A DNA stretch of 64,000 nt from Luteibacter aegosomatissinici (lineage in GTDB: Bacteria > Pseudomonadota > Gammaproteobacteria > Xanthomonadales > Rhodanobacteraceae). The position numbers were made by a program, and so were the translations under genes. The notes under the pieces are model-generated. The model was not told the DNA's origin. It worked only from the letters and a program-made list of their open reading frames with translations, and ran no database searches. Of the stretch, positions 1,330 through 23,895 are shown piece after piece; positions within the stretch are counted from its first letter, which is position 1; every line of letters begins with the position of its first letter. Location: contig NZ_CP095742.1 in NCBI RefSeq assembly GCF_023078495.1, positions 4,302,501 to 4,366,500 on the forward strand, in the 5' to 3' direction.

Positions 1330-2580
1330 TTAGGCCACCTTGGCCTCGCGGCTGGCGAACTCCGCCAGTGTCGCGTGCAGGCGTTCGAGGCCCGCGGCGG
1401 TTTCTTCATCGGTGATGTTGAGCGGCGGCACGATGCGCAGCACATCGGGGCCGGCCTGCAGGATGAGCAGGCCGTGCGCGGCGGCGATATCGAGCACTTC
1501 GCCGGCGCGCCCCTTGAAGGCATCGGAGAGCACTGCGCCGATCATGAGCCCGCGGCCACGGATTTCCGAGAACAGGTGGAACTCGTGGTTGAGCTTGTCG
1601 AGACCCTTGCGGATATCGTTCGCCTGGCGTTCCACGTTGAGCAGCACCGCGGGTGAGGCGATCTTCTTCAACGCAACGCGCGCGACCGCGGCCGCCATCG
1701 GGTTGCCGCCAAACGTCGTGCCGTGCGCGCCGAACTGCATCACCTCCGATACCTTCGGGCCGGCCAGCATCGCGCCGATCGGGAAGCCCGCACCCAGTGC
1801 CTTCGCCAGGGTGACGATATCCGGCGTGACATGGTCGTGCGTGTGCGCGAACAGCGTGCCGGTGCGGCCCATGCCGCACTGGATTTCATCCAGCACCATG
1901 AGCGCGTTGTGGGCATCGCACAGCTCGCGGATCTTCTTCAGGAAGCCCGGTGCCGCGGGCGTGACACCGCCCTCGCCCTGCACGGGTTCGACCATCACTG
2001 CGGCAACGCCACCCTTGGCGAAGGCTTCTTCCAGCGCGGCTTCATCGTTGAACGCCACGTAGCGGAAGCCACCCGGCAGCGGCTCGTAGCCTTCCTGGTA
2101 CTTGGGCTGCGCGGTGGCGGTGACCGAGGCGAGCGTGCGGCCGTGGAACGAGCCGAGGAAAGTGATGATGACGCGGTCTTCCGGCGCGCGGCCCTGGCCG
2201 GCGGCCCACTTGCGCACGAGCTTGATCGCGGCTTCGTTGGCCTCGGTACCGGAGTTGCACAGGAACACGCGATCGGCGAACGGTGCGTGCTCGATGAGTT
2301 CTTCGGCCAGGCGCAGCGGCGGCTCGGTCCAGAACACGTTGCTGGCGTGCCACAGCTTGTGGGCTTGCGAGACGAGCGCCTCGACCAGCTCGGGCTCCTG
2401 GTGGCCCAGGGCATTCACGGCAATACCGGCGCCAAAATCGAGATAGTCGCGACCTTCCGTATCCCACACGCGCGCGCCCTTGCCGTGGTCAAGGATGACA
2501 TCACGGGGGCGGTACACGGACAGCCAATAGCGCTTGCCCAGGCCGATGAGATCGGAGGGTTCGACAGGATGCGACGACAT
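1330..2580 (-). CDS. argD: Acetylornithine/succinyldiaminopimelate-type aminotransferase
   Basis: 416-residue class III PLP aminotransferase of the ArgD/AstC group. It interconverts N-acetylornithine and N-acetylglutamate semialdehyde in arginine metabolism, and may also act on succinylated substrates. Visible motifs are NSGTEANEAAIK, SFHGRT, EPVQGEGGV, DEIQCGMGRTG and the PLP lysine in LAKALGAGFPIG. The start MSSHPVEPSD at 2580 fits family length; the open frame upstream lacks family similarity. A sigma70-like promoter lies at 2706-2734, giving a leader of about 120 nt. Biosynthetic ArgD versus catabolic AstC cannot be settled from the sequence, since no other arginine gene is in the window. 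Confidence 0.9.
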   Translation of the reverse strand: MSSHPVEPSDLIGLGKRYWLSVYRPRDVILDHGKGARVWDTEGRDYLDFGAGIAVNALGHQEPELVEALVSQAHKLWHASNVFWTEPPLRLAEELIEHAPFADRVFLCNSGTEANEAAIKLVRKWAAGQGRAPEDRVIITFLGSFHGRTLASVTATAQPKYQEGYEPLPGGFRYVAFNDEAALEEAFAKGGVAAVMVEPVQGEGGVTPAAPGFLKKIRELCDAHNALMVLDEIQCGMGRTGTLFAHTHDHVTPDIVTLAKALGAGFPIGAMLAGPKVSEVMQFGAHGTTFGGNPMAAAVARVALKKIASPAVLLNVERQANDIRKGLDKLNHEFHLFSEIRGRGLMIGAVLSDAFKGRAGEVLDIAAAHGLLILQAGPDVLRIVPPLNITDEETAAGLERLHATLAEFASREAKVA

Positions 2581-2705
2581 GGAAACGACTCCCGGGCCCG
2601 GCCGCAGCGCCTGGCCCCAAACAGGAACGGATGGAATCGCACGGTACGTTCTGCGGTCCGACATCGATCCGATGCCCGCGCGGCATGGTGCGTCGCGGGA
2701 TCCCC

Positions 2706-2734
2706 ATCGTATAAGGCGCGGGCTCCGCGGACAA
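2706..2734 (-). promoter_or_regulatory. Putative sigma70 promoter of argD
   Basis: On the minus strand TTGTCC (2729-2734) is followed after 17 bp by TACGAT (2706-2711), an acceptable -35/-10 pair. Its -35 overlaps the left dyad of the element at 2732-2766, so a protein bound there could affect argD transcription. Confidence 0.5.
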
Positions 2735-2766
2735 CGGCTGTTCCGTTGCTGTAACGGCCTGTTACA
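2732..2766. promoter_or_regulatory. Tandem dyads, candidate upstream activating sequence of a sigma54 activator
   Basis: Two perfect inverted repeats of identical architecture lie side by side. They are CAACGG-N5-CCGTTG (2732-2748) and TGTAAC-N5-GTTACA (2750-2766), with centres 18 bp apart. They are about 100-135 bp upstream of the predicted start of the sigma54 transcript, the usual position of enhancer sites for Fis-type sigma54 activators. A further outer pair, GCTGTA (2748) and TACAGC (2773), extends the symmetry. Which protein binds is inferred; the activator gene at 2984-4321 is the obvious candidate. Confidence 0.55.
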
Positions 2767-2841
2767 CAACGCTACAGCCGATGAACGGCCCGGAAATGCC
2801 GGTCGGGTAGAAATTCCTTGCGAATCAAGGCCACGCCCGGG

Positions 2842-2857
2842 TGGCATGCGGCTTGCT
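2842..2857 (+). promoter_or_regulatory. Sigma54 (RpoN) promoter
   Basis: TGGCATGCGGCTTGCT fits the consensus TGGCAY-R-N4-TTGCW, with the invariant GG at 2843-2844 and GC at 2855-2856 in correct spacing. The predicted transcription start is about 2868. No protein-coding frame follows. A strong terminator ends at 2971. Confidence 0.72.
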
Positions 2858-2867
2858 CGCCTTCAGG

Positions 2868-2971
2868 GGAGGCCCCTGGCGGCCCACGCGGTTCGCTCGA
2901 CCGACGACCCTGCCAAGCCGGACGAGAGAACGGGAACTCCCGGTCCCCCAGAGGGCCGGGAGTTTTCTTTT
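2868..2971 (+). ncRNA. Putative sigma54-dependent small RNA, about 104 nt
   Basis: The segment lies between a consensus sigma54 promoter (2842-2857) and an intrinsic terminator with a T-rich tail (2963-2971), and is preceded by enhancer-like dyads (2732-2766). It contains no ATG-started frame with a ribosome binding site, so it is most simply a non-coding RNA. The 5' end can fold as GGGGAGGCCCC, and the 3' hairpin is GC-rich. The gene is convergent with the sigma54 activator, ending 12 bases before that gene's stop codon. The arrangement recalls the Vibrio LuxO/Qrr and Pseudomonas CbrB/CrcZ pairs, in which a sigma54 activator drives an sRNA. Transcription and targets are unknown. Confidence 0.55.
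2935..2971 (+). terminator. Rho-independent terminator of the putative small RNA
   Basis: AACTCCCGG (2935-2943) pairs with CCGGGAGTT (2956-2964); inner bases CCC/GGG can extend the stem. TTTTCTTTT follows on the plus strand. The minus-strand side lacks a T-run, so it is oriented for plus-strand transcription and not for the activator gene. Confidence 0.8.
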
Positions 2972-2983
2972 CCAGAGGTGCGG

Positions 2984-4321
2984 CTAGCGCAACTGATCGA
3001 GGGCCAGCTGGTGCTTCTTGCAGAGGCGGTACACCGTGACGCGCGACACCCGCAGCCGGCGGGCGCATTCGCTGATATTGAACGCGCTGGCCCGCAGGCA
3101 ATCGACGATGGCCTCGCGCTCGGCCGAGGTGCGCGCGCTGCCCAGGCTGTCGCGATCGATGCCGGGCAGGTCGGCGTTGAGTTCAAGGTCATCCGGGGTG
3201 ATCAGGGCATCGTCGGCGATCACGGCCGCGCGCTGCACCCGGTTCATCAGCTCGCGCACGTTGCCGGGCCACGAGAAGGCGTTCATGGCCTTGCGCGCCG
3301 CCGTGCTGAACGCCCGCGCACGGGTGCCATAGCTTTCGCGGAAGGCATCCAGGAAGTATTGGGCCAGCAGCTCGATGTCGCCGTTCCGTTCGCGCAGCGG
3401 CGGCATGCGCAGGCGCAGGACGTTGAGCCGGTAGAACAGGTCCTCGCGGAACCGCCCCTGGGCCACCGCCTTTTCCAGGTCGACGTGGGTGGCGGCGAGC
3501 ACGCGCACGTTCACCTTGATGGACTGGCAGCTGCCGATCCGCTCGATGGTGCCTTCCTGCAGCACGCGCAGCAGGTTGGTCTGGGCATCCAGCGGCAGGT
3601 CGCCGATTTCATCCAGGAACACCGTGCCGCCATCGGCGGATTCGAAATGGCCGATGCGCCGCGCCGTGGCCCCGGTGAAGGAACCGCGCTCGTGGCCGAA
3701 CAATTCGGACTGGACGAGGTTGGCCGGGAGCGCGCCACAGTTGATGGCGGCGAAGGGCTTGTCGCGGCGCGCGGAGAGCTGGTGCAGGGCCCGGGCGGCC
3801 ATTTCCTTTCCCGTGCCGGTTTCGCCGGTGATCAGCAGCGGCAGCTCGACGGGCGCGAACTTCCGAATATTCTGAGAAAGCGCCCGGATCGCCGGACTCG
3901 TGCCAGTCATCACGCTGGGCTGGTCATCGTCCAGCACCGGGATGCCATCGGCGGGCACCCGCTGGAGTGCCTGGCGAAGTGCCTGCAACGACGAGGCGCC
4001 ATCGATGAGTTCGAAGGCCTGGGGCAGCACATGCTGGATGGAAGGATCGTTCGCGGGCGTGCGGTGGCCGGTGAGGCCGATCCACGCCAGGCCCGGGTGG
4101 TTGTCGCGCAGCTCCTGGAGTACCCGCACGGCTGCCTGCGCGCTCGCGCGCAGATCCACCACGGCGATGGCCGTGTCCCCACATTCGGGCAAGGCGCTAT
4201 CCAGCCGGGCCGGATCGGCCACCAGCGTTCGCCAGCCAGCCCGAATCAGCCCGAAATGCTCTTCAACGCTCGGCCTTCCAACCCAGACGACGCAACGTCC
4301 CGTCGATTCCCCGCGTGACAT
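2984..4321 (-). CDS. Sigma54-dependent activator (AAA+ / Fis-type), pseudo-receiver N-terminus
   Basis: 445-residue enhancer-binding protein that would hydrolyse ATP to open sigma54 promoters. Residues 1-125 resemble a degenerate receiver (VVDLR at 55-59), possibly of the VpsR type. The AAA+ domain runs about 135-365, with Walker A GETGTGKE (166-173), sigma54 loop GSFTGA (213-218; usually GAFTGA) and Walker B FLDEIGD (235-241). A Fis-type helix-turn-helix follows at 415-436 (NISECARRLRVSRVTVYRL). The start at 4321 gives family length. The upstream 214 bases hold its promoter region but no clear motif. Its 3' end faces the putative sigma54-driven RNA, and autologous control of that RNA is inferred. 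Confidence 0.92.
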   Translation of the reverse strand: MSRGESTGRCVVWVGRPSVEEHFGLIRAGWRTLVADPARLDSALPECGDTAIAVVDLRASAQAAVRVLQELRDNHPGLAWIGLTGHRTPANDPSIQHVLPQAFELIDGASSLQALRQALQRVPADGIPVLDDDQPSVMTGTSPAIRALSQNIRKFAPVELPLLITGETGTGKEMAARALHQLSARRDKPFAAINCGALPANLVQSELFGHERGSFTGATARRIGHFESADGGTVFLDEIGDLPLDAQTNLLRVLQEGTIERIGSCQSIKVNVRVLAATHVDLEKAVAQGRFREDLFYRLNVLRLRMPPLRERNGDIELLAQYFLDAFRESYGTRARAFSTAARKAMNAFSWPGNVRELMNRVQRAAVIADDALITPDDLELNADLPGIDRDSLGSARTSAEREAIVDCLRASAFNISECARRLRVSRVTVYRLCKKHQLALDQLR

Positions 4322-21850: not shown

Positions 21851-23857
<2,007 letters not shown>

Positions 23858-23895
23858 GGGCCGATTCAAGCACGAAGCGGGGAGGAACGCGAGGC

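Follow-up and report, generated by a model that had tools for sequence, protein, structure and literature searches.

Organisation of the locus

The locus lies within the 64-kb stretch of DNA that was analysed (hereafter the window). It is bounded on one side by an aminotransferase gene, which we take to be argD-like, and on the other by the gene of a sigma54 activator. From left to right, it contains the following features:

1330-2580, minus strand: argD-like aminotransferase gene at the other end of the locus from the activator, used as a synteny marker
2739-2776, plus strand: upstream activator site, made of the palindrome TGTAACGGCCTGTTACA (2750-2766) and the outer half-sites TGTTCCG (2739-2745) and CGCTACA (2770-2776)
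2812-2829, plus strand: conserved box around AATTCCTTGCGAATCAA, between the activator site and the promoter (80% mean pairwise identity in 21 Luteibacter loci)
2842-2857, plus strand: sigma54 promoter TGGCATGCGGCTTGCT, with the -24 GG at 2843-2844 and the -12 GC at 2855-2856 (TGGCAYN5TTGC in 22 of 22 Luteibacter loci)
2868-2971, plus strand: predicted small RNA of about 104 nt with three stem-loops (fold, alignment and covariance model R2)
2891-2931, plus strand: SL2, a stem with covarying pairs and the conserved loop ACGACCCUGCCAAGC at 2904-2918 (fold and alignment)
2908-2916, plus strand: predicted seed CCCUGCCAA, which matches by complementarity two sites of fap2 (a second fap-like operon, located elsewhere in the genome), one in its 5'UTR and one at the fapF2 start
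2932-2971, plus strand: SL3, intrinsic terminator hairpin and U-tract (fold and alignment)
2984-4321, minus strand: sigma54 activator gene (bEBP, 445 aa), convergent to the predicted RNA; its product combines a VpsR-like N-terminal domain (weak match), an AAA+ domain with a GSFTGA loop and a Fis-type HTH

The initial annotation had proposed a consensus sigma54 promoter at this place; the site is near-consensus, and both its GG and its GC were found in the letters of the window. The bare sigma54 motif is within chance, with one match in 64 kb and at least one match in 26 of 100 shuffled sequences. The palindrome of the activator site is beyond chance (one match against 0.03 expected; present in 3 of 100 shuffles). 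Two dyads had been described 100-135 bp upstream of the predicted start; a palindromic site does exist there, but it is better read as a single palindrome with outer half-sites, and its distance to the predicted start is 92-129 nt. The position of the box around AATTCCTTGCGAATCAA would presumably suit an IHF-type site.

With 2868 as its predicted start, the RNA adopts a three-hairpin fold of SL1, SL2 and the SL3 terminator. The strong terminator that had been annotated as ending at 2971 was recovered in this fold as a hairpin (2932-2967) followed by the U-tract; the hairpin is not in the list produced by a simple terminator scan of the window. The 104-nt RNA folds modestly better than its shuffles (z -1.8, 13 of 200 shuffles being as good), and the RNAs of two Luteibacter relatives gave z values of -3.6 and -4.0. 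As had been noted, no reading frame separates promoter and terminator: a conserved closed frame is absent from the 22 Luteibacter transcripts, 18 of which contain no closed frame at all, the longest having 24 codons. The arrangement expected of an sRNA gene, namely a -24/-12 promoter, a terminator of its own and no coding sequence, was found here.

An Rfam search of the window left the sRNA element unmatched, and the permissive search of positions 2600-3100 returned one chance-level fungal match and nothing else. When the loci of nine relatives were searched, rRNA and tRNA were the sole matches. The only element of the window matched at threshold is a TPP riboswitch located far off (23763-23861, minus strand). 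Within its own genome, the RNA has no second strong copy, the next best covariance matches reaching 25 bits (its own reverse strand) and 24 bits (elsewhere).

The convergent Fis-type activator gene was confirmed at the coordinates listed above. The VpsR-type N-terminal domain of its product matches below Pfam's cut-off; the sequence of residues 25-380 matches the VpsR structure, the domain-level Pfam match being weak. All 21 Luteibacter copies checked have an intact GSFTGA or GAFTGA loop, and an activator match at E <= 1e-105 occurs in 122 of 233 Rhodanobacteraceae genomes. In three genomes (G017 and G016, loci L018 and L019, together with G032), the activator seems to be devoid of its N-terminal sensory domain: the open frames are 322-343 aa long and match only from residue 135-140 on. 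These shorter activators might be constitutive.

Conservation of the promoter and RNA in Luteibacter

The conserved block was located across the genus by DNA search, aligned and then searched with covariance model R2. One strong match (77-117 bits) was obtained in 22 of 23 Luteibacter genomes, in each case beside the activator, weaker matches in these genomes scoring 35 bits or less. The exception is G004, which has no RNA match, no activator match at E <= 1e-105 and no fapF2 match in the homolog search of the 23 genomes. The initial annotation had suggested that promoter and terminator be compared beside the same activator in related genomes, and both are indeed kept in 22 of the 22 Luteibacter genomes that carry it. 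Outside the genus, 45 further loci keep promoter and RNA although the operon described below is gone; against this, both promoter and RNA are missing from 13 of 107 activator-bearing loci. Because TGGCAYN5TTGC and the RNA recur at the same place in all 22 activator-bearing Luteibacter genomes, the sRNA locus is beyond chance.

Conservation is concentrated in the predicted functional elements. Over 21 of the 22 Luteibacter loci, the promoter has a mean pairwise identity of 88%, the terminator 87%, SL2 84% and the activator site 65%. The surroundings reach 39% (distal spacer), 53% (stretch between activator site and promoter), 51% (initiation region) and 44% (behind the terminator). In the alignment of the 22 RNAs, 94.3% of cells pair and six pairs are changed on both sides. 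The covariation score exceeds that of all 500 shuffles, such shuffles keeping relatedness in; further pair types, used as a second covariation measure, did no better than shuffles (257 of 500).

The palindrome TGTANC-N4-7-GNTACA, with at most one mismatch, precedes 17 of the 22 Luteibacter sRNA promoters (shuffled mean, 0.1), and 13 of these 17 place it 91-92 nt before the promoter. Over 23 genomes, a pattern restricted to the 5-base spacing (hence not covering the 6-base spacing of fap2) has its exact matches, among those listed, mainly at the sRNA locus, and the one-mismatch matches listed are not commoner than those of the reversed control in most genomes.

Relationship to fap operons

Elsewhere in the Rhodanobacteraceae, a complete fapABCDEF operon for functional amyloid fibres (Fap) can occupy the interval from argD to the activator, with the same sigma54 promoter at its argD end and the same activator in convergent orientation. 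These full operons contain, between fapC and fapD, a related element of three hairpins ending in a terminator. The identity of the genes was examined at locus L158, which shares identical fap proteins with L041 (Dyella silvatica): the best NCBIfam models of the successive genes are FapA, B, C, D, E and F in this order, all of them below the curated cut-offs, the FapF product matches the solved FapF structure (PDB 5o65) at 4e-80 and the third gene product matches the solved FapC (9nqd) at 1e-12. Many other genomes have lost the fap genes or carry them in broken form, yet retain the promoter and hairpin element. No fapD, fapE or fapF match was found between argD and the activator in the 22 Luteibacter loci.

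The activator found in these loci has a probable counterpart among described proteins. According to the accessible text of PMC9207406, the fap promoter of Pseudomonas fluorescens PF07 lies ahead of fapA and is RpoN-dependent (5' RACE), and brfA, a 1326-bp frame in reverse orientation just downstream of fapF, encodes a Fis-type RpoN-dependent activator required for fap transcription; the accessible part of PMC13101488 describes BrfA as sensing c-di-GMP. The full Rhodanobacteraceae loci share this arrangement of promoter, operon and convergent activator, the bEBP gene being found just downstream of fapF. Since the same activator sits convergent to a full fap operon in relatives, it is probably BrfA-like; this assignment is made by position, domain make-up and length. 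It is possibly c-di-GMP-responsive as well. The Luteibacter locus differs from that of PF07 in having no fap genes, a small RNA being its only predicted product, and the portions of PMC9207406 and PMC13101488 at hand mention no sRNA. Given the conserved palindrome and the convergence of the activator with a fap operon carrying the same promoter in relatives, the analysis supports the reading that 2868-2971 encodes a sigma54-dependent small RNA under control of the neighbouring activator.

The distribution of these states was examined on an argD tree. Of 123 activator matches, 119 loci were considered (G071, G155, G157 and one of the two G062 copies were not included), and the tree took the 107 with an argD match of sufficient length, leaving out 12. 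Patterns decided the state of each locus. For five loci, the presence of the RNA was entered manually: L012 and L019, from the alignment, and L158, L179 and L215, for which the fap genes determine the state. Two extracted stretches, L198 (wrong side of G179) and L199 (arbitrary stretch of G004), have no activator end. The tree comprises 27 loci with a full operon, 67 (Luteibacter included) with promoter and RNA only, and 13 with neither. With the patterns used, none of the 80 operon-less loci has a promoter lacking its RNA or an RNA lacking its promoter, and the 13 promoter-less loci gave no R2 match and nothing above 14.3 bits with model R1. Operon presence requires 16 changes on the tree; at least eight of these changes are forced by starred branches, so that loss (or regain) of the fap operon happened repeatedly.

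Covariance model R1 was trained on other genera alone, using 44 of 68 extracted elements. In each of the 22 Luteibacter loci, it recovers the element in the correct position and orientation with modest scores of 19-40 bits, other matches in the same loci, mostly on the reverse strand, scoring 12-26 bits. At E <= 1e-8, R1 matches once per genome in 52 of the 398 genomes of the order, all of them Rhodanobacteraceae, the Luteibacter copies scoring below that line. The Luteibacter RNA and the fapC-fapD element resemble each other in position, in their three-hairpin make-up and by covariance model. They differ in that the latter lies inside the fap transcript whereas the former directly follows the promoter, and in their loops. 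Considering position, make-up and scores together, descent of the Luteibacter RNA from the fapC-fapD hairpin-terminator is probable. A hairpin of -17.8 kcal/mol or lower was also present upstream of fapD in 9 of 10 fap loci sampled from the class (simple, uncontrolled fold scan), so that the ancestral element, perhaps an attenuator, may be more widespread among Fap systems.

Some loci of other genera depart from this scheme. In L145-L151 (genus g13), about 200 additional nt separate the promoter from the hairpin-terminator, and GCCAGCTGCGA and its near-complement recur there; the RNA of this genus may be longer and carry an extra long-range stem. L152, L155 (G032) and L156, which have promoter and RNA without operon, show a small reading frame between the two, perhaps a stub of fapA.

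A second fap-like operon

A distant FapF homolog (FapF2, 25-30% identical) is encoded elsewhere in 22 of 23 Luteibacter genomes, the exception being again G004. The operon to which it belongs, fap2, consists in order of (i) a gene, g1, whose product is rich in Gly, Ser and Asn and looks secreted, (ii) a small gene, g2, (iii) a gene for a FapD-like C39 peptidase, (iv) a gene in the position of fapE and (v) fapF2. The first two genes and the gene in fapE position match no family; we infer that the first encodes a fibre protein.

A sigma54-type promoter, GGCAYGN4TTGC, lies 92-114 nt upstream of the first fap2 start codon in 22 of 22 Luteibacter genomes; in the genome of the window (G000) it reads AGGCA, where the strict pattern requires TGGCA. 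The palindrome (at most one mismatch) occurs 91-94 nt upstream of this promoter in 18 of the 22 genomes. It is less regular in other genera, where it was found at 12 of 45 promoters with RNA only, 14 of 30 full-operon promoters and 4 of 15 fap2 promoters. In the family, fapF2 is present in 94 of 233 genomes, 91 of which also have the activator, relatedness inflating any test on this table. Taken together, these sequence features indicate that, in Luteibacter, both fap2 and the sRNA are probably under this activator. Since some genomes have the activator and fap2 but lack the RNA, fap2 does not depend on the RNA. In one genome (G023, contig C22), fapF2 lies directly beside the activator, at the place where other genomes carry the fapF of the first system.

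Complementarity between the SL2 loop and fap2

The SL2 loop can form at least eight contiguous Watson-Crick pairs with the fap2 5'UTR of its own genome in 20 of 22 Luteibacter genomes, which, these genomes being related, represent far fewer than 20 independent events. The motif GGCAGG is present in the 5'UTR of all 22, 13-16 nt into the stretch taken as transcribed. With dinucleotide-shuffled UTRs, the mean was 0.4 genomes with at least eight pairs and the maximum three; when the loop columns were permuted alike in all genomes, none of 2000 permutations reached 20, the largest value being 16. G016 has CCCCUGCC in place of ACCCUGCC in its loop and GGCAGGGG in its 5'UTR; eight pairs are kept, which possibly reflects a single compensated change.

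A second site lies at the start of fapF2, where loop complementarity of at least eight bases occurs in 18 of 22 genomes, four falling short of it; 3 of 2000 permutations reach this value, for a gene first noticed through a pattern search that preceded the complementarity test. This site is probably within codons 4-7 and not at the ribosome site. With the same threshold, none of the 22 genomes showed complementarity at the starts of g1, g2, fapD2, fapE2 or argD, and one did at the activator start; for protein matches with a late beginning, the start window was extrapolated.

Modelling of the UTR places most of the 5'UTR site in paired regions (mean unpaired probability, 0.30). The idea that loop binding there opens the ribosome site was rejected, modelled access being 0.36 with and without blocking.

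In other genera, the RNAs carry C-rich loops (CCCCUG) and fap2 loci carry a CAGGGG box, for example 29-35 nt before the first fap2 gene in L336-L354 (138 nt in three genomes). Pairing between the two was considered and discarded. Most of the fap2 loci inspected have the box, whether or not the RNA is present; among 12 fap2 genomes in which the activator occurs and the RNA is absent, it is found in 11 (not in G176), close to the first gene in eight (G186, G199, G227, G122, G123, G025, G124 and G206) and further upstream, behind a promoter, in three (G220, G223 and G233). Since the box is kept without the RNA, it provides no evidence of pairing in other genera.

Proposed circuit and alternative explanations

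We propose the following circuit. The convergent BrfA-type activator, possibly responding to c-di-GMP, would switch on the sigma54-dependent RNA 2868-2971, whose gene would have arisen when a fap operon lost its genes and kept its promoter and its fapC-fapD hairpin-terminator. The same activator would drive fap2 elsewhere in the chromosome, and the SL2 loop would pair through CCCUGCCAA at two places on the fap2 mRNA, its 5' end and the first codons of fapF2. Such pairing would tune the output of fibre protein and outer-membrane pore under inducing conditions, in the manner of a feed-forward loop. The RNA would then exert in trans a control that the fapC-fapD element may formerly have exerted in cis, setting the ratio of fibre to export pore. 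At the fapF2 site, repression is the likelier sign of the effect; at the 5' end of the mRNA, pairing could protect or destabilise the transcript. Considering the evidence as a whole, we lean towards the model in which an activator-driven sRNA derived from a lost fap operon pairs by its SL2 loop with an mRNA under the same activator.

The alternative that survives best, which we regard as unlikely without being negligible, keeps the sigma54/BrfA-driven sRNA, gives it other mRNAs as main targets and makes the fap2 match coincidental. Conservation of RNA and promoter would be expected under it too, and potential seed sites near start codons are many: TGGCAGGG-N2-16-ATG has 51 matches in the genome of the window (reversed pattern, 15). 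In addition, sX13 of Xanthomonas, also an RNA with C-rich loops, affects many genes, as described in the accessible text of PMC3771888. Against coincidence stand the two conserved sites on one mRNA, each rarely or never equalled by permuted loops, the complementarity of six other starts in none or one of the 22 genomes, the like palindromes at the sRNA and fap2 promoters, and the fact that fap2, activator and RNA are all unmatched in G004.

It is improbable that the transcript does not act in trans at all, being instead antisense to the 3' end of the convergent activator gene or sharing a terminator with it. The U-tract does end 12 bp before the activator stop codon and the hairpin is near-symmetrical, but the strong U-tract is on the plus strand, the distance to the stop codon varies (by about 90 bp in L006), and promoter, palindrome and SL2, for which an activator terminator has no need, are conserved as well. 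Slightly less probable still is that promoter and terminator are functionless leftovers of a fap operon, as the fapD or fapF remnants beside promoter and RNA in L037, L165, L171 and L175 and the loss of both elements in 13 of 107 loci could suggest, given that all 22 activator-bearing Luteibacter genomes keep them while the surroundings drifted to 39-53% identity, that stem pairs covary and that, among the 80 operon-less loci, every one of the 67 with a promoter keeps the RNA.

Comparison with known systems

The control of an sRNA sigma54 promoter by a sigma54 activator is known from LuxO/Qrr in Vibrio and CbrB/CrcZ in Pseudomonas. The likeness drawn to these pairs in the initial annotation holds as one of arrangement only: the Luteibacter RNA has no Rfam match, another origin and, as predicted target, a fap-like operon with the same activator site. 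The sX13 RNA, in the accessible text of PMC3771888, has three stem-loops and requires its C-rich loops for repressing mRNAs with G-rich motifs near their starts. The Luteibacter RNA likewise has three stem-loops, with a loop whose sequence is complementary to the fap2 sites; the loops of sX13 are CCCC or CCCCC, compared with CCCUGCCAA here, and sigma54 control is not mentioned in that portion of the paper. Among the papers listed, mostly open-access, on fap regulation, on fap with sRNA, on sigma54 with sRNA in the order and on BrfA, none deals with an sRNA of this locus or with sRNA control of Fap. The arrangement of a sigma54 sRNA with its own activator is already known; its probable descent from a fap operon, together with its predicted target, makes the present case new.

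Significance

Births of sRNAs are rarely caught with their intermediates. Here, one family includes loci with the complete operon, with remnants of its genes, with the RNA on its own and with nothing left of either, the activator being kept. We suggest, as a tentative reading to which we give a little less than an even chance, that the operon died and that its promoter and internal hairpin-terminator lived on repeatedly as an sRNA gene in this family, that the Luteibacter loop acquired a match to fap2 under the same, possibly c-di-GMP-responsive, activator, and that control of the fibre/pore ratio in cis thereby became a feed-forward loop in trans. If true, activation of fap2 would always bring its own modulator, and a Fap-type system would be under post-transcriptional control. 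One small circuit of a soil bacterium would then connect an sRNA with a fap-like operon and a BrfA-type activator.
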